DNA from: a virus
Length of the DNA stretch: 26,515 nt
IMG/VR virus record: IMGVR_UViG_3300047476_000887
Span: 1-26,515 of that record
Strand: one strand, 5' to 3'
Shown here: piece after piece, positions 2,718 through 26,515 of the stretch
How positions within the stretch are numbered: the stretch's first letter is position 1
Layout: every line of letters starts with the position of its first letter
The notes under the pieces: generated by a model
Told to the model about the DNA's origin: nothing
Databases searched by the model: none
What the model saw: only the letters and a program-made list of their open reading frames with translations
Translations under genes and position numbers: made by a program

Positions 2718-3893
2718 ATGTTAAACTTTAAAGATTTCCTCAAAGAAGAAGCTGAAGAAGGTGCTAAATTAAAGCACATTCATCATGCTGAAGACAGACC
2801 ATTCCTACACGGACATGAAGGTTTTGAACACGCTGAAGGTGCTCTGAAACAAGCCCATGAACATATGAAGTCTGGTCATGCTAGCAACGACCTTACTGAA
2901 AAGTTCGACGGTTCTCCTTCTATTGTGTTTGGTAAACATCCTGAAACTGGTAAGTTCTTTGTAGCTTCTAAGTCAGCCTTTAATAAGAACCCTAAGATTA
3001 ATTACACCCCAGAAGATATTGATAAGAACCACGGTCATGCTCCTGGTCTATCTTCTAAGTTAAAAGATGCGCTTGCAAACCTACATAAAGTTGCACCAAA
3101 GAATGGTGTATATCAGGGTGACTTAATGCATACTTCTGAAGATCATCAGGTACATCCTAATGGTTCAGTATCTTTTACACCAAACACTATTACATATACA
3201 GCTCATGGCGCTGAAGCTGAAAAAGTAAAACGATCTAAAGTTGGAGTTGTTGTTCATACAAAATACGAGGGTAAAAACCTTGGCGATATGAAAGCAACTC
3301 CAAACGTTTCTGATAGTGAGTTTAAATCTCATCCAGACGTTCATATTCATACAGCTAACTTTGACACAAGCAAGGTTCACTATACACCAGAACACCAACG
3401 TAAGTTTGAAGAACATATGCACGCAGCACGTGATGTTCATTTAAAGAATCCAGATATGTACAAGCATATTGATCGCCACGGTGGTGATGCTGGACACCTA
3501 GCAACCTATATCAACCAAACTGTTCGTGACGGATCAAAACCAAATACCCAAGACTTTAAAAAGCATGTTATGGATAAATACCAAAAGATGGCTGATAAAG
3601 TAAAGACTGAAAAATCTAAACAAGAAAAGATCGGTCAGGGTGAAGGGCAATTAGCTCATGTTGACGCCCACAAAGAACATTATGATGCAGCTTTTAAACT
3701 TCATAGTCATTTACAGGCTGCAAAGAATACGTTAGTTACTGCTTTAGAATCTCACAAAGGTGGTTATGATTACTCAATCAATGACAATCCTTCAAAACCA
3801 GAAGGCTTTGTTGTAAACCATAAGGGTGAACCAACCAAACTAGTAAACCGTTCAGAGTTCGCTAGACAAAACTTATTAAAGGTACGCAAATGA
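2718..3893 (+). CDS. Ligase-like covalent nucleotidyltransferase with a capsid-targeting-like N-terminus
   Basis: The 391-residue protein shows a KxDG motif (KFDG, residues 62-65), the signature with the nucleotidyl-accepting lysine of DNA/RNA ligases and capping enzymes. It also has YQGDLM near 132-137, EGFVV near 362-366 (motif IV-like) and a following TKLVNR segment (motif V-like). It is very His- and Lys-rich. The first ten residues, MLNFKDFLKE, match the T4 capsid-targeting sequence pattern (see findings). I choose ATG 2718 over the in-frame TTG at 2685 because it removes an overlap with the upstream gene and restores the N-terminal motif shared with neighbours. The gene ends in an ATGA overlap with the next. 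Ligation activity is inferred from motifs; the acceptor is unknown. Confidence 0.65.
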   Translation: MLNFKDFLKEEAEEGAKLKHIHHAEDRPFLHGHEGFEHAEGALKQAHEHMKSGHASNDLTEKFDGSPSIVFGKHPETGKFFVASKSAFNKNPKINYTPEDIDKNHGHAPGLSSKLKDALANLHKVAPKNGVYQGDLMHTSEDHQVHPNGSVSFTPNTITYTAHGAEAEKVKRSKVGVVVHTKYEGKNLGDMKATPNVSDSEFKSHPDVHIHTANFDTSKVHYTPEHQRKFEEHMHAARDVHLKNPDMYKHIDRHGGDAGHLATYINQTVRDGSKPNTQDFKKHVMDKYQKMADKVKTEKSKQEKIGQGEGQLAHVDAHKEHYDAAFKLHSHLQAAKNTLVTALESHKGGYDYSINDNPSKPEGFVVNHKGEPTKLVNRSEFARQNLLKVRK

Positions 3894-4291
3894 TTTCATT
3901 TAAAGAATATCTCTCAGAGAAGAAAAAAGACCCTTGCTGGACTGGCTATGAAATGGTCGGTATGAAAGACAAGAACGGAAAGAAAGTTCCTAACTGTGTA
4001 CCAGTTAAAGAAGAAGCTGAACTTGATGAAGCAGCAACTGCTGACGCTAAGGGTTACAAGTCTGCTACTGGCGGCTTGACTCAAAAAGGTCGAGACGCTT
4101 ATAATCGTTCACATGGTAGTAATCTAAAAGCTCCTGTAACTACACCACCATCTAAACTAAAAGCAGGTAGTAAAGCTGCTAATCGTCGCAAGTCTTTCTG
4201 TGCACGTATGAGTGGTGTTGATGGTCCAATGAAAAAGCCAAACGGAGAACCTACTCGTAAGGCATTGGCTCTTAGAAAGTGGAACTGCTAA
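3890..4291 (+). CDS. Small conserved phage protein with capsid-targeting-like N-terminus
   Basis: This 133-residue basic protein begins MISFKEYLSE, again the T4-like ten-residue pattern. Two blocks follow. An N-terminal block (residues 14-38) carries CWTGYEMVG and PNCVPV with paired cysteines. A C-terminal block has GGLTQKGRDAYN, KSFCARMSG and a tail ending TRKALALRKWNC. From memory, both blocks recur in hypothetical proteins of T4-like aquatic phages, but I know no function for them. The start overlaps the previous stop (ATGA), and its stop overlaps the next start (TAATG), so the three genes are probably translationally coupled. A packaged head protein is an inference from the N-terminus and neighbours. 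Confidence 0.7.
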   Translation: MISFKEYLSEKKKDPCWTGYEMVGMKDKNGKKVPNCVPVKEEAELDEAATADAKGYKSATGGLTQKGRDAYNRSHGSNLKAPVTTPPSKLKAGSKAANRRKSFCARMSGVDGPMKKPNGEPTRKALALRKWNC

Positions 4292-4902
4292 TGTTAGACT
4301 TTCTTGGCTTTTTAAAAGAACAAGCCAACCAACGTCACGGTGTTATGGCGTTTGGTAGAATGAACCCACCTACAATCGGTCATGAAAAGTTAGTAAACAA
4401 AGTTCACGAGATTGCTAATAAGCATGACGCTATTCACGCTGTTGTTTTATCACACAGTCAAGATGCTAAAAAGAATCCTCTTGATGTTGCATCTAAAGTA
4501 AAACATGCAAAGAATGCGTTTCCTAATACTAATGTTGTCGGTGCTTCTAAAGAGCGACCAACTATTATGCACCACGCTTCAGCTATGTATGAGGCTGGTG
4601 CCCGTCACCTTCATGTGGTTGCTGGTTCAGATCGTGAGGAAGAGTATAAGAAACTTCTAAGCACATACAATGGCAAAGAAGGTAAGCACGGATACTATAA
4701 TTTTAAAAGTATTACTATTCACTCTGCGGGGCAACGAGACCCTGATGCTGAAGGTGCTGAAGGTATGAGTGCTTCTAAGATGCGTGAACATGCAGCCTCT
4801 GGTAATGAAAAAGAGTTTCACTCAGGTTTACCAAGTCATATGTCTACTGCTCATAAAAAGTCTTTATATAACGACCTAAGAAAAGCAATGGGGCACGGAT
4901 AA
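4291..4902 (+). CDS. HIGH-superfamily nucleotidylyltransferase (first of two tandem copies)
   Basis: The 203-residue protein contains GRMNPPTIGH at residues 22-31, the (H/T)xGH nucleotide-binding motif of cytidylyl-/adenylyltransferases. SASKMR at 160-165 corresponds to the ISSTxxR motif that contacts the triphosphate. AGSDREEEY near 112-120 also fits the fold. It would transfer a nucleotidyl group from CTP or ATP to an unknown acceptor. The first ten residues (MLDFLGFLKE) match the capsid-targeting-like pattern. The start at ATG 4291 overlaps the previous stop; a GTG at 4279 in frame is rejected for that reason. A second, more divergent copy of the domain follows in the gene at 4946. Confidence 0.8.
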   Translation: MLDFLGFLKEQANQRHGVMAFGRMNPPTIGHEKLVNKVHEIANKHDAIHAVVLSHSQDAKKNPLDVASKVKHAKNAFPNTNVVGASKERPTIMHHASAMYEAGARHLHVVAGSDREEEYKKLLSTYNGKEGKHGYYNFKSITIHSAGQRDPDAEGAEGMSASKMREHAASGNEKEFHSGLPSHMSTAHKKSLYNDLRKAMGHG

Positions 4903-4908
4903 GAAACG

Positions 4909-4915
4909 CTAAATA
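4909..4915 (+). promoter_or_regulatory. Candidate T4-type late promoter box
   Basis: CTAAATA lies in the 43-base gap before the gene at 4946. A T4-type start six bases downstream (about 4921) would give a 25-base leader. Unlike most of the other boxes here, no convincing stem-loop follows it. The SD of the next gene is also weak (GATGG at 4936). Confidence 0.4.
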
Positions 4916-4945
4916 ATACTGTTACTAATTATACTGATGGATTAA

Positions 4946-6763
4946 ATGAAGAATTACAAAGAACTACTAAACGAACTACCATCCAAGACAGCTGTTTTTG
5001 CGGCTGGAAGATTCAACCCTCCAAACGTTGGGCATGAATTAGCGATTAAAGTGGTTCGTAAATTAGCAAAGCAGCGCAAGGCTGACCACTTCATTTTTGT
5101 ATCCTCGGTACAAAACGCTAAGATAGATCCCTTAGAAATTAGTAAAAAGATTCAGTATTTGGAATTGTTTTTTCCAAATACAAAGTTTGTGCAGAAAGAG
5201 ATCGCTGATGCGATGACTATGCTCAAGCGTTATAAACACATTGTTATAGTTGCCCCAGCAGAACTTGTTCAAGAGTATAAGAAAGCCTTGAGTAAGTATA
5301 AGTTTGAAAATGTAGAGGTTGTTATTGCAGGAACTACATGTCCAGACTGCGATCACCGACTAGTTAAGTCAGCAAGTAAAGGCAACTATCAATCGTTTAA
5401 AAATGGTTTACCAACTACTATCAGAGAGTTGGATGCTAAGAGATTAATGAATGATGTTCGTTCTGGTCTTGGTCTAGAGCCAATTAAAGAACAAATCAAT
5501 TTAGTTAAAGATCAACTCAGAGAAAAGTATTTCAGAGGTGAGATTTTTAATGAAGGTGATGTTGTAGAGTGTGATGAGTCTGTCTACAAGATCATAAAAA
5601 GAGGTTCAAACCATTTACTGTTGCAAAGTCAGAGCGGTGAAAAGGTTTCCAAGTGGATTCAAGACGTTAAAGAAACGGAAAGAGAATATATGCTAGAACA
5701 AAACTTACAAGAAGCTGATATGGCTCACGCTACTGGTAAAGTTGGTGGTGACGTTAAGAAAGCCCAACAAGATACCAAAATTGCTCAGCTACAAGCAAAG
5801 CATGCAACTGAAGTTCAGAATCTAAAAGCAAAACAAGAGCGTGAAGCACAAAATACAAAAGCTCAAATGAAAGAGGCTAACGATTCTCCAGTTGTTGATA
5901 CTAAGTCAAAGTATAACATTGCCAAGTCCTTAATGAGCTTACATGACTTCCGTAAGACCATGGGTATGGGACAAGCTCCTGTTAAAGTAGATAACGATAA
6001 AGAAACTGAAAGCGATATTGACGCAGCGGTCGCTAAGGTTCACGAGCCTCATACTAAAGTCGGCGCTGTTCACATGAATGGTTCAGACAATCATAACCTA
6101 AGAAGAATGCGAGTAAAGTATCACTTGGGTGAAGAGACTAAAGAACAAAAATCTAATCGTGAAGCAGAACTAAAACGTTTTAACGGTCAAAGTAAAACAG
6201 TCAACGTTGACAAAGTTCATGCTGCTGGACAAGAACCGCATGAAGAAAAGTTCGAAGACTTTAAAGAAGAAGAACTATTTAATCAGGTAGAGTTAGACTT
6301 AGAAAATCTAAACGAAGATGATTACTTTGAAGCATATGATGATGAAGAACTAGCAATCGTTGATGAAGAAACTGGCGAAGAGATTGAAGCAATTCAAGAA
6401 AGCTCTGATTCTTTAATGGAAGTTCTATCAAGAGCAGAACGTATTCGTGCTGGTGCTAGAATGCGTCGAACACAAACAAAACGTCAACGTGCTGAGAAAG
6501 TAGCATTAAGAAGATTCTCAACTCAAGAAGTTGCTAATCGCAGAGCAAGACGCCTAGCCGTATCAGCTATTAAAAAGAGACTACTAAAAGGTCGTCCTGC
6601 TTCAAAGATTTCTATCGGTGAAAAAGAACGTGTTGAACGTTTTATTGCGCAACGCAGAAAAGTAGTAGACCGTCTAGCAGCACGTATGGTTTCAAGAGTT
6701 AAGAATATTGAAAAAGCACGTATGTCTCATAAGAAATATACTAAACCTGCTGGAGCATACTAA
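4946..6763 (+). CDS. Multidomain head-associated candidate: HIGH nucleotidylyltransferase domain, acidic/coiled middle, basic tail
   Basis: The 605-residue protein opens with MKNYKELLNE (capsid-targeting-like). A second HIGH-superfamily domain follows, with GRFNPPNVGH at residues 21-30. The expected SSTxxR site appears degenerate, so catalysis is doubtful. Next comes a small beta domain (about 205-245, GEIFNEGDVVEC to KWIQDVKE), a Gln/Lys/Glu helical stretch (about 270-310), a conserved-looking block with SLHDFRKTMGMG, and a strongly acidic region (about 435-485). The final 110 residues are very Arg/Lys-rich, suited to contacting packaged DNA. Its stop overlaps the next start (TAATG). The mosaic build and neighbours suggest a virion component; enzymatic activity is uncertain. 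Confidence 0.65.
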   Translation: MKNYKELLNELPSKTAVFAAGRFNPPNVGHELAIKVVRKLAKQRKADHFIFVSSVQNAKIDPLEISKKIQYLELFFPNTKFVQKEIADAMTMLKRYKHIVIVAPAELVQEYKKALSKYKFENVEVVIAGTTCPDCDHRLVKSASKGNYQSFKNGLPTTIRELDAKRLMNDVRSGLGLEPIKEQINLVKDQLREKYFRGEIFNEGDVVECDESVYKIIKRGSNHLLLQSQSGEKVSKWIQDVKETEREYMLEQNLQEADMAHATGKVGGDVKKAQQDTKIAQLQAKHATEVQNLKAKQEREAQNTKAQMKEANDSPVVDTKSKYNIAKSLMSLHDFRKTMGMGQAPVKVDNDKETESDIDAAVAKVHEPHTKVGAVHMNGSDNHNLRRMRVKYHLGEETKEQKSNREAELKRFNGQSKTVNVDKVHAAGQEPHEEKFEDFKEEELFNQVELDLENLNEDDYFEAYDDEELAIVDEETGEEIEAIQESSDSLMEVLSRAERIRAGARMRRTQTKRQRAEKVALRRFSTQEVANRRARRLAVSAIKKRLLKGRPASKISIGEKERVERFIAQRRKVVDRLAARMVSRVKNIEKARMSHKKYTKPAGAY

Positions 6764-7701: not shown

Positions 7702-9135
7702 ATGCAAGATAAATTACAACAAGAAGATACAGTATCTGCAGATAGAAAAATTCGTATCATTATTGACCCAAAAACTGGTAAGCGTAGACAGACTTCTTCA
7801 GTTGTGTCTAGACAAAACTTTGACTCAGAAAAATTTGGTAATCGTAATAAACAAGATGACGACGATATTGATAATGTAAAAGAGTCAACTATCCAGCCTA
7901 CAGGAACTAGTCAGATTGATGTTGGTGCAACTGAGCGAGCAGTTGATGCCGCTAAAGATAGTAAAAAAAGCTCTGGTCAGATTCAGTTTGTAACTGGAAA
8001 CCAACGAGTAACATCTTCAACCGCAATTGGGAACGCACAAAATATGGGTATCAAAAAAATCTCTGAGTCTATTGTTAAAAAAGCAATGGCGCAAGTTAAG
8101 GTAGATAAAAATGTCGGAACAGAAGAAATTCCAGTCGACGGATCATGTGGTAAACCTGCTTGTGAAATGGATAGTAATTCTAATTCTTCTAATGTTCCTA
8201 ATTCACGTGCTCGCCAGATGGCTAGACAAGCCATGAAGCATGTAAGAGAAGAACTTAAAGGCGACCAACACAAGTTGGACAAAAATAAGAACGGCAAACT
8301 AGACAAGCATGATTTTAAACTGCTACGTAAAGAAGAGCAAGGTTTGGCAGAAGGCTTGCCACAGACTCTACGCAAGGTTGTTCCTGGTTATGCCAAGCGT
8401 GAGATTGATAAAAAGATGGATGCTGGTAAGTTTGGCAAGACTGACGCCGATAAGGATGCCAACTTCCAACGCTATAAAAAGATTCAAGACAAGATCAAAG
8501 AGCAAGCTGTGGCGGAAGAAAAGAAACAATTGACCGAACTTAGTAGAGATACTCTGTTGAGTTATTCAAATAAGGTTTCATTGGATAGTCAAAAGCACTC
8601 TAAAGACCCAACCAAACGCAGTGGAGAAAAAGCAAGCCGTAGCGTTGCTGGTTATGCTAAAGCAAACAACAGACTCGAGAAGCCAGTTAAAGAAGAATCT
8701 GAACTTAAAGAAAAGAATGGATTGTGGGATAATATCCATGCCAAGCAGAAACGAATCAAAGCTGGTTCTGGTGAAAAAATGCGCAAGCCAGGGAGCGAAG
8801 GTGCCCCAACAGATGCTGCACTAAAAGCATCACAGAATAAACTTAATAAAGAGGAGACAACTATGTCCAAAACTTATGCTGACTTCGTTCAGCAACTACA
8901 AGAATATAATGCAAGCAAAGATGGTGTCTATCGTCATAAAGGCACTTATGGTGGTAGCTATGATTCTAGTGATGACGAAGATGATGACAAGCCAAAGGCA
9001 AAACCAGCTGATGCACCAAAGCGTGGTCGCGGTCGTCCAGCAGGTTCTAAGTCTGGCGCAAATCAAAAAGTAACAACTGGTAAGTCTTATGGTGGCATCG
9101 CTACACATACTCTAAGCCTACCTAACTCAAAATAA
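7702..9135 (+). CDS. Mosaic phage protein with an EF-hand-like loop and AT-hook-like tail
   Basis: This 477-residue hydrophilic, Lys-rich protein looks like a string of short modules. They are an N-terminal DPKTGKRR segment; a Cys pair (DGSCGKPACEMD, about 148-160); a canonical EF-hand calcium loop DKNKNGKLDKHD (about 193-204); a VPGYAKREIDKKMDAGKFGK block; a LTELSRDTLLSYSNKVS block; a GLWDNIHAKQKRIKAGSGEK block; an acidic run; and a GRGRPAGSK AT-hook-like tail. From memory, similar blocks recur in different orders in proteins of aquatic T4-like phages. No catalytic motif is seen. An internal in-frame start with a strong SD lies at 8863 (separate entry). A structural or internal-head role is inferred from context. 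Confidence 0.65.
   Translation: MQDKLQQEDTVSADRKIRIIIDPKTGKRRQTSSVVSRQNFDSEKFGNRNKQDDDDIDNVKESTIQPTGTSQIDVGATERAVDAAKDSKKSSGQIQFVTGNQRVTSSTAIGNAQNMGIKKISESIVKKAMAQVKVDKNVGTEEIPVDGSCGKPACEMDSNSNSSNVPNSRARQMARQAMKHVREELKGDQHKLDKNKNGKLDKHDFKLLRKEEQGLAEGLPQTLRKVVPGYAKREIDKKMDAGKFGKTDADKDANFQRYKKIQDKIKEQAVAEEKKQLTELSRDTLLSYSNKVSLDSQKHSKDPTKRSGEKASRSVAGYAKANNRLEKPVKEESELKEKNGLWDNIHAKQKRIKAGSGEKMRKPGSEGAPTDAALKASQNKLNKEETTMSKTYADFVQQLQEYNASKDGVYRHKGTYGGSYDSSDDEDDDKPKAKPADAPKRGRGRPAGSKSGANQKVTTGKSYGGIATHTLSLPNSK
8863..9135 (+). CDS. Candidate internal in-frame gene product (90 aa, AT-hook-like)
   Basis: ATG 8863 sits inside the gene at 7702 in the same frame, six bases after GAGGAG (8851-8856), one of the better SD sequences in this region. 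The product starts MSKTYADFVQQLQE, reminiscent of T4 MKTYQEFIAE. An acidic run (SSDDEDDD) and the basic GRGRPAGSK follow. Separate translation would give a small DNA-binding-type protein that could be packaged. Alternatively the SD-like bases merely encode Lys-Glu-Glu-Thr, or two once-separate genes have fused. Proteomics of virions would decide. Confidence 0.4.
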   Translation: MSKTYADFVQQLQEYNASKDGVYRHKGTYGGSYDSSDDEDDDKPKAKPADAPKRGRGRPAGSKSGANQKVTTGKSYGGIATHTLSLPNSK

Positions 9136-24268: not shown

Positions 24269-25243
24269 ATGAAAACTGGTATTTTTATTGGGCGATTCCA
24301 GCCCATACATCAAGGTCATATCCACGCTCTGGGCGTGGCTGCTTCCCAAGTACAGAAACTGTACATCCTCGTTGGTTCGGCTAATCAATGCCGTTCAATT
24401 CGCAATCCCTGGACATTTACAGAACGTAAGCAAATGCTTCAACTGCAGTTGCATGCCCAGCGCATTAGCAACTATGAAATCATCCCACTAAACGATTATC
24501 GCTACTCAGACACACAATGGATGTCTGATGTTCGTGCAACTATTGAACATTATGCCATGGGTTCTCCAACCTTGTTTGGTCATATGAAAGAAGGCAACGA
24601 TTATCTTAAGTGGTTTCCTGAATTAAAATTTAAATCTATCGAGGCGCAGCATTCGGTAGACGCAACAGAGATTCGTACTCGAATGTTTGTTGAGAACGAT
24701 CCTTTGATGCCTGAAACTGTCCGTGGAGACTATGCATTCTATCAAAAAGAAAAACAAACCTTTGCTAACTATCCATTCCCCGAAACACTCAACTTCAACT
24801 GTTCCGATGCAATCCTTGAATGTCAAGGTCACATCTTGCTTATCCAACGCAAGTTTAGCCCAGGAAAAGGTGCTTGGGCACTTCCAGGTGGTTTTCGCAA
24901 TCAGCGAGAAACATTTCTTGACTGTGCCATCCGCGAGTTGATTGAAGAAACAAACGTGCGAGTTCCAGAGAAAGTTCTGCGTGGCTCAATCGTAAAGACC
25001 GAACTGTTTGATAATCCATATCGATCGTTTGGTATTCCCCGAAACACCATGGCTGTGTACATGCGTATTAGTCCAAACCCTGACTACTCGCTGCCACGTG
25101 CCAACGGTGCCGATGATGCTGCTCTGTGCAAGTGGGTGCCACTTACTGATGCACTGAACAACATCGAAATGTACGATGATCACAAAGACATCGTAACAAA
25201 AGTAACAGGTGTCATGCCGATGCCTGCATTTGCAAAACTGTAA
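24269..25243 (+). CDS. natV: Bifunctional NMN adenylyltransferase / Nudix hydrolase
   Basis: The 324-residue protein combines two domains. The N-terminal NMN adenylyltransferase has GRFQPIHQGH at residues 8-17 and an ATEIRTRM segment near 131 that replaces the SxTxxR motif. The C-terminal Nudix domain has its box starting at Gly208, with Glu214, Arg222-Glu223 and Glu226-Glu227. The usual Gly near the end of the box is Asn. The first domain makes NAD from NMN and ATP; the second likely cleaves ADP-ribose or related dinucleotides. The same fusion is known as NatV in vibriophage KVP40 and in some cyanobacteria. AGGAG precedes ATG 24269 and nadV follows after ten bases. Confidence 0.9.
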   Translation: MKTGIFIGRFQPIHQGHIHALGVAASQVQKLYILVGSANQCRSIRNPWTFTERKQMLQLQLHAQRISNYEIIPLNDYRYSDTQWMSDVRATIEHYAMGSPTLFGHMKEGNDYLKWFPELKFKSIEAQHSVDATEIRTRMFVENDPLMPETVRGDYAFYQKEKQTFANYPFPETLNFNCSDAILECQGHILLIQRKFSPGKGAWALPGGFRNQRETFLDCAIRELIEETNVRVPEKVLRGSIVKTELFDNPYRSFGIPRNTMAVYMRISPNPDYSLPRANGADDAALCKWVPLTDALNNIEMYDDHKDIVTKVTGVMPMPAFAKL

Positions 25244-25253
25244 GGAGCTTACT

Positions 25254-26515
25254 ATGAAACTCGCAAAATCAATTATCTTGAATACTGACTCGTACAAAGT
25301 CTCGATGTTCAAACAATATCCTGCTGGCACTACTGGTGTTTATAGTTATATTGAATCTCGTGGTGGTCGTTATGACCAAACTGTGATGTTCGGACTGCAG
25401 GCATTTATCAAGGAGTACCTACTTGACCCAATTACTCAAGCCGACATTGATACTGCGGATGCAATACTTACTGCTCACGGAGAACCCTTCAACCGAGAAG
25501 GATGGGAATACATTCTACGTGTGCACAACGGCTACCTTCCAGTCGTTATCCGTGCTGTACCTGAAGGCACTGTGGTTCCTGTTAAAAATGTACTTGCAAC
25601 AATTGAAAATACGGATCCTCAATGTTTTTGGTTGACCACTTATCTTGAAACTGCCCTATTGCGTGCAGTATGGTATCCTACCACTGTATCTACTCAATCT
25701 TACACAATCAAGAAAGTAATTCTTGACTATTTGGAGCGAACTGGTGACCCTACAACTATTAATTTTAAGTTGCACGATTTTGGTGCTCGCGGTGTGTCTA
25801 GCATGGAGTCTGCTGGGATTGGTGGAGCCGCTCACCTCGTTAACTTTATGGGCACAGATACTATTACGGGCATTTTGTATGCTCGTGAGTATTACAACGC
25901 TGGCATTGCTGGGTTCTCCATCCCTGCTGCCGAGCATAGTACAATCACTTCTTGGGGTCGTGACAACGAGGTAAAAGCATATGCTAACATGGTTACTCAA
26001 TTCGCCAAACCTGGTTCCATTGTTGCTGTTGTCAGCGACAGCTATGATGTATATAATGCCGCTTCCAAGCTCTGGGGTGAGCAACTACGTCAACAAGTTA
26101 TTGATAGTGGTGCAACTATTGTTATTCGTCCTGACAGTGGCGATCCTGTTGATGTTAACCGTCAATTGATTGAGATTCTTGGTCAGAAGTTTGGTTACAC
26201 TGTCAACGCCAAGGGATTCAAAGTGCTGAACAATGTTCGTCTTATCCAAGGCGACGGTGTCAATGAATTGACTATTCGTAGCATTCTCGGTGCCTTCATG
26301 GCGATGGGATGGTCAGCTGACAACATCGCTTTTGGTATGGGTGGTGCTCTGCTCCAACAAGTGGATCGTGACACTCAAAAGTTCGCAATGAAGTGTTCTG
26401 CTGCATTGATTAATGGCGAGTGGATTGATGTACAGAAAGATCCTATCACTGACTCAGGTAAGAAATCTAAAGCTGGTCGAGTAACACTTTGGAAAGCTGG
26501 TGGTGAGTGGGTAAG
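25254..26515 (+). CDS. nadV: Nicotinamide phosphoribosyltransferase (3' end outside window)
   Basis: About 420 codons are visible without a stop; the family is about 460-500 long, so most is present. Motifs match the NAMPT/NadV family: KLHDFGARGVSSME, IPAAEHSTITSWGR (His228, the position of the catalytic His of human NAMPT), VSDSYDVYNA and RPDSGDP (Arg292, Asp294). It converts nicotinamide and PRPP to NMN, which the preceding enzyme turns into NAD. AAGGAG (25242-25247) is the SD. The two genes form a complete two-step salvage route, as in KVP40. This region is richer in G and C than most of the window. Confidence 0.95.
   Translation, partial: MKLAKSIILNTDSYKVSMFKQYPAGTTGVYSYIESRGGRYDQTVMFGLQAFIKEYLLDPITQADIDTADAILTAHGEPFNREGWEYILRVHNGYLPVVIRAVPEGTVVPVKNVLATIENTDPQCFWLTTYLETALLRAVWYPTTVSTQSYTIKKVILDYLERTGDPTTINFKLHDFGARGVSSMESAGIGGAAHLVNFMGTDTITGILYAREYYNAGIAGFSIPAAEHSTITSWGRDNEVKAYANMVTQFAKPGSIVAVVSDSYDVYNAASKLWGEQLRQQVIDSGATIVIRPDSGDPVDVNRQLIEILGQKFGYTVNAKGFKVLNNVRLIQGDGVNELTIRSILGAFMAMGWSADNIAFGMGGALLQQVDRDTQKFAMKCSAALINGEWIDVQKDPITDSGKKSKAGRVTLWKAGGEWV

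Follow-up and report, generated by a model that had tools for sequence, protein, structure and literature searches.

The internal proteins IPII and IPIII of bacteriophage T4 are textbook capsid-targeting proteins, and T4 Alt is an injected ADP-ribosyltransferase that is packaged in the head and processed. The initial annotation of the DNA studied here had taken MKTYQEFIAE to be the capsid targeting sequence (CTS) of the T4 internal proteins; this holds for IPII and IPIII, the only proteins it begins, whereas IPI carries a longer variant, MKTFKEFTSTTTPVSTITE. Mutants of T4 IPIII have assigned targeting to residues 4 and 7 and processing to residues 8 and 10, and an aspartate at position 10 permits targeting without cleavage (PMC9026906). 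In the giant phages SPN3US and phiKZ, the prohead protease trims the N-termini of ejection proteins at x-x-E sites (PMC5694885). For S-CREM2, 52 virion proteins are given in Table 3 of PMC10665884; its authors suggest that enzymes of this kind pass into the host, warn of contamination or carry-over, and name no targeting signal in their discussion of these proteins. Judging by titles and abstracts, the CTS literature surveyed deals with T4, P1, P22 and giant phages, and the sole paper in it that also mentions cyanophages draws no link there.

The stretch of DNA analysed here, hereafter the window, comes from an uncultured aquatic T4-like phage. This virus record spans 26.5 kb, and its gene order is of the T4-like cyanophage/pelagiphage type: a phrog_3560 protein, DUF6267, DUF6321, cytidyltransferases, head-related small genes, spanin-like genes, DNA primase, ThyX and ribonucleotide reductase. 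The interval from the gp41 helicase to the gp61 primase has the same order in HTVC008M, Melnitz, S-SM1 and S-CRM01, and in P-HM2 its gp41-side half is seen. No named phage matched the window in a megablast search. Elsewhere in the window, a NadM-like NMN adenylyltransferase-Nudix gene followed by a nicotinamide phosphoribosyltransferase (24269-26513) is an NAD+ salvage pair, as in other phages (PMC9503650), and the protein at 651-1367 contains HELIH, a possible zinc metallopeptidase motif.

All four peptides described by the initial annotation as near-identical ten-residue starts of consecutive genes were found in place (Table 1). Upstream in-frame starts exist for two of these genes (TTG 2685 and GTG 4279). 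Since in relatives a stop codon lies 0-3 codons 5' of the same ATG as in the genes at 2718 and 4291, these two positions are very probably the real starts.

Table 1. Tagged genes of the window and their predicted propeptides
Feature	Position	Strand	Basis
DUF6267 (PF19782, phrog_455) protein, ligase/nucleotidyltransferase-like, 391 aa, tag MLNFKDFLKE	2718..3893	+	motifs KFDG, EGFVV, KLV; profile match E 3.8e-95
Predicted capsid-targeting-type propeptide MLNFKDFLKE, predicted cut after E10	2718..2747	+	T4 pattern, N-terminal conservation
Small protein with C-terminal DUF6321 (PF19846) Cys module, 133 aa, tag MISFKEYLSE	3890..4291	+	profile matches
Predicted capsid-targeting-type propeptide MISFKEYLSE	3890..3919	+	T4 pattern
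HIGH-superfamily nucleotidylyltransferase (phrog_3041, PF01467), 203 aa, tag MLDFLGFLKE	4291..4902	+	profile matches, invariant residues, fold match
Predicted capsid-targeting-type propeptide MLDFLGFLKE	4291..4320	+	alignment with relatives
Long protein with N-terminal HIGH nucleotidylyltransferase domain (phrog_3041), 605 aa, tag MKNYKELLNE	4946..6763	+	profile matches
Predicted capsid-targeting-type propeptide MKNYKELLNE	4946..4975	+	MKNYKELLSE and similar in L007, L022, L063
Candidate fifth tagged product MSKTYADFVQQLQE, longer type, in-frame internal start inside ORF 7702-9135	8863..9135	+	KTYxxF as T4; LxE at residue 14; strong SD

In the rest of the window, a longer-type candidate lies at 8863, an internal ATG preceded by a strong Shine-Dalgarno sequence (AGAGGAGA) that is conserved together with the motif in locus L063. 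In the nearest near-complete relative (160 kb, DUF6267 87% identical), an ATG-first tag was found on three genes of this gene cluster and nowhere beyond them.

The tag was formalised as the strict pattern M..[FY]..[FYL][LIV].E. Across 127 loci, 206 of the 2846 ATGs lying in the first 40 codons of an ORF begin such a match, as opposed to 4 of 8113 ATGs further inside; the loci were picked via two of the tagged families, and the 206/2846 count is thus made up of non-independent events. At the internal background rate, at least four matches in about 33 genes have a probability of about 2e-9. None of the 70 CDS of lambda matched, and the only ATG-first matches in T4 were IPII and IPIII. We thus rejected chance as the source of the tag, while the agreement with the T4 pattern, in length and at the fixed positions 4, 7, 8 and 10, was borne out.

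Statistics on tags chosen by the pattern itself would be circular, and we replaced them with DUF6267 N-termini chosen by homology (28 distinct N-termini from 80 loci). Among these, F4 and L8 never change, position 7 holds F or Y, and 27 of the 28 have E at position 10, with residues 2, 3, 5, 6 and 9 variable. Identical tag peptides are encoded with differing synonymous codons. The structural model of the DUF6267 protein places a short helix at residues 4-8 and a low-confidence linker at 13-18 ahead of the folded body.

When the first 12 residues were removed before clustering, the tagged proteins fell into 21 groups, the largest group joining several families via fusions. About 20 unrelated families carry the tag. 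The bodies include DUF6267, DUF6321, HIGH, kinase and SAM hydrolase proteins, an Fe/Mn superoxide dismutase (MKNFTSFVEE, L099:14071-14943) and a protein with an ADP-ribosyltransferase domain (MKTFKTFIVE; PF03496, E 4e-12; L068:2819-3523). DUF6267 and the transferase are fused in 16 ORFs, which may stem from few events; 13 of the 16 have the tag at the front and none at the junction. Among unfused transferase ORFs, 68 of 92 have it just 5' of the HIGH motif, and several of the misses are one residue shorter (MAFKDYLRE). DUF6267 homologues without the motif, which the initial annotation had regarded as evidence against packaging, do occur in S-SM1, S-H35, P-HM2, S-CAM1 and S-CRM01, where the protein starts near the expected mature body, whereas elsewhere the tag is kept. 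Given the fusions without an inner tag and these tagless cyanophage proteins, the tag therefore comes and goes apart from the body. In our analysis, the tagless homologues fit a detachable, swappable tag, as in the T4 internal proteins, better than they fit a refutation. As a separate observation, the 3890-4291 protein with its C-terminal DUF6321 Cys module matches 13 PHROG families, so that this module recurs as an addition to many phage proteins and might serve head proteins as a second module. A small domain of the 605-aa protein (GDVVECDESVYKIIKRGSNHLLLQSQSGEKVSKWIQDV, window 5498-5683) resembles, by eye, stretches in S-SM1 SSM1_190, P-HM2 PHM2_164 and S-CAM1.

Head genes are absent from the window, which is a fragment, and the evidence on the protease and on gp23 comes from relatives. 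A gp21-type protease was looked for and found: of 16 related records, 9 encode Peptidase_S77, among them the three complete phages and the nearest relative (160 kb); the other seven are pieces of 55-105 kb. In both the 160-kb relative and S-SM1, gp23 contains an LxE close to the position of the T4 cut (FLTE/AEIGG), with predicted cuts at ALFE/TAPTN and ILTE/TLQTT, respectively. We also noted that a gene between portal and gp21 protease (L141, G001:C1:107417-107839), in the place of the T4 prohead core genes 67/68, has the tag-like start MHFKQFLERHK.

Virion data are available for S-CREM2, S-SM1 and S-CRM01, the phage of the window being known here from sequence alone. Three of the 219 annotated CDS of S-CREM2 carry the strict tag (the GTG start of ORF14 counted), namely a SAM hydrolase (MKDFDSFLEE), a kinase (MKRFDAFLTE) and a cytidylyltransferase (ORF154, MKNFSSFLTE), and all three belong to the 52-protein virion set (p 0.013). 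A looser pattern adds two more virion proteins (ORF13 and ORF136), but three undetected ones too, and our argument rests on the strict pattern only. ORF12, annotated as Cas9 (...PLRFASFMAE), was left out because its tag lies away from the annotated start and because Pfam detected no Cas9 domain in it. For S-SM1, virion content was taken from the proteins named in the text of PMC3037559, where T4-GC190 is reported in virions; this protein is SSM1_190 (MKKFSAFLNE), the only ATG-first strict-pattern match in that genome. The combined chance of the S-CREM2 and S-SM1 matches is about 0.002. The kinase reported in S-CRM01 virions starts with MISFDQFLSE. Mass spectrometry virion sets also hold many untagged proteins.

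The activities of the cargo enzymes are predicted from their sequences and models. The DUF6267 profile scores 319.9 bits on the 2718 protein against a cut-off of 27, and K62, D64 and G65 (KxDG), E362 and G363 (EGxV) and K374 (KLV) are invariant. The best fold matches of the model (pLDDT 87) are ligases, with a DNA ligase at the top, and they are weak (3rr5, probability 0.90, E 0.016, TM 0.22). On this basis, DUF6267 is probably a covalent nucleotidyltransferase with a helical insert. In the 203-aa transferase, G30-H31 of the [HT]xGH-type motif and S160/R165 of the downstream SxxxxR motif are invariant, and the fold matches are NaMN/NMN adenylyltransferase and FAD synthetase (probability 1.0); by its model, the protein is a HIGH-superfamily adenylyltransferase of predicted activity. 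Sequence searches of solved structures with these two proteins gave no match. A role of the cargo in nucleic-acid end repair is hinted at because, at two loci (L020 and L024), a tagged polynucleotide-kinase-like (PNK-like) HAD protein is encoded between DUF6267 and the transferase.

Considering all these results, we propose, with a probability of roughly 0.84, that the window encodes an operon of head-packaged, probably trimmed and probably injected enzymes. We are highly confident that these decapeptides are CTSs of the T4 type. While the head is being assembled, the tag, with F/Y4 and F/Y/L7 as its binding face, would tie each enzyme to the prohead core. A gp21-type protease would probably then cut after L-x-E10, and the propeptide would leave. 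The freed enzyme would stay in the head with the DNA and, as seems reasonably probable, enter the next host alongside it and act early, possibly on nucleic acids or defences. The tagged genes would make up a single cargo cluster located between gp41 (helicase) and gp61 (primase), which in the window would comprise a ligase-like nucleotidyltransferase, a small DUF6321 protein and two HIGH adenylyl/cytidylyltransferases. Loading into the prohead, as originally proposed, is supported by the conservation, the tagless fusion junctions, the protease of the relatives and the tagged proteins in their published virions.

Several other explanations may be considered. The tag might be a docking or localisation signal for a target other than the prohead, such as the membrane, RNA polymerase or a late assembly site, with virion presence due to carry-over. 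An amphipathic FxxFLxE start could indeed bind other partners, and the S-CREM2 paper allows for co-purification of enzymes (PMC10665884). However, the length and fixed positions match those of T4 IPII and IPIII exactly, the constant L8 and E10 are what gp21 requires for its cut, and every strict-tag protein of S-CREM2 is in the virion set, so that we consider this explanation improbable. Marginally less probable still is that the proteins are packaged and remain untrimmed, with the tag anchoring them permanently to a protein of the inner head. This idea draws on the T4 D10 variant, which is targeted without being cleaved (PMC9026906), but T4 needs E10 for cleavage and not for targeting, the near-constancy of E10 among the DUF6267 N-termini is at odds with it, and so is the gp21 homologue in relatives.

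Descent of all these proteins from one duplicated gene, with the N-terminus as a relic, we regard as negligible. The HIGH domain common to the third and fourth proteins would agree with it, and for this reason the claim that the downstream domains are unrelated stands for three bodies and not for four. Otherwise the bodies are unrelated and the losses and gains of the tag are independent of them, and for most families the lack of similarity past residue 12 refutes simple paralogy, in line with the initial annotation.

The mechanism of capsid targeting followed by trimming is already known from T4. What appear to be undescribed are the enzyme cargo, the host range of the phages involved and the tag's prediction of published virion content. 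T4-like viruses of the cyanophage and pelagiphage type are very common in water. We lean towards the view that they combine a common, swappable tag with a dedicated cargo cluster into an exchangeable arsenal of injected enzymes that could be read from sequence alone, and that would include ligase-like and PNK-like proteins, adenylyltransferases, an ADP-ribosyltransferase, a SAM hydrolase, a kinase and a superoxide dismutase. Cyanophage virion proteomics has repeatedly found cytidylyltransferases and kinases, leaving unsaid how they enter or whether they are contaminants. The ten-residue start supplies a mechanism and a test, having picked out published virion proteins from their sequences. Via the tag, candidate injected effectors can be listed for very many uncultured phages, and DUF6267 and DUF6321, both families of unknown function, are pointed to as head cargo.

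Compared with described systems, the tag differs from the propeptides of SPN3US and phiKZ, which are mostly longer than 100 residues and for which no common decapeptide is reported (PMC5694885). The tagged ADP-ribosyltransferase domain of L068 recalls T4 Alt, although Alt itself starts with MELITELFDE, unlike the tag pattern, and the tagged set of the window holds no ADP-ribosyltransferase gene. There is a close likeness to the gp21-cut CTS of T4 IPI, IPII and IPIII: a ten-residue start with aromatic residues at 4 and 7, an aliphatic residue at 8 and E10, on mutually unrelated proteins, and a gp21-type protease, here found in relatives. Unlike the T4 internal proteins, which are small, the cargo of the window type consists of predicted enzymes clustered between gp41 and gp61 in cyanophage/pelagiphage-type phages. 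The bodies show no similarity to internal proteins either, the PHROGs and Pfam matches of the four window proteins being DUF6267, DUF6321, cytidyltransferase and unnamed families, with no T4 internal-protein family among them. The cargo set of S-CREM2, S-SM1 and S-CRM01 (SAM hydrolase, kinase and Cas9-annotated protein) differs from that of the window and was published with no targeting signal named in the sections on these proteins. Like the window, these phages encode enzymes with the tag start, in their case a cytidylyltransferase or kinase that is present in virions (PMC10665884, PMC3037559).
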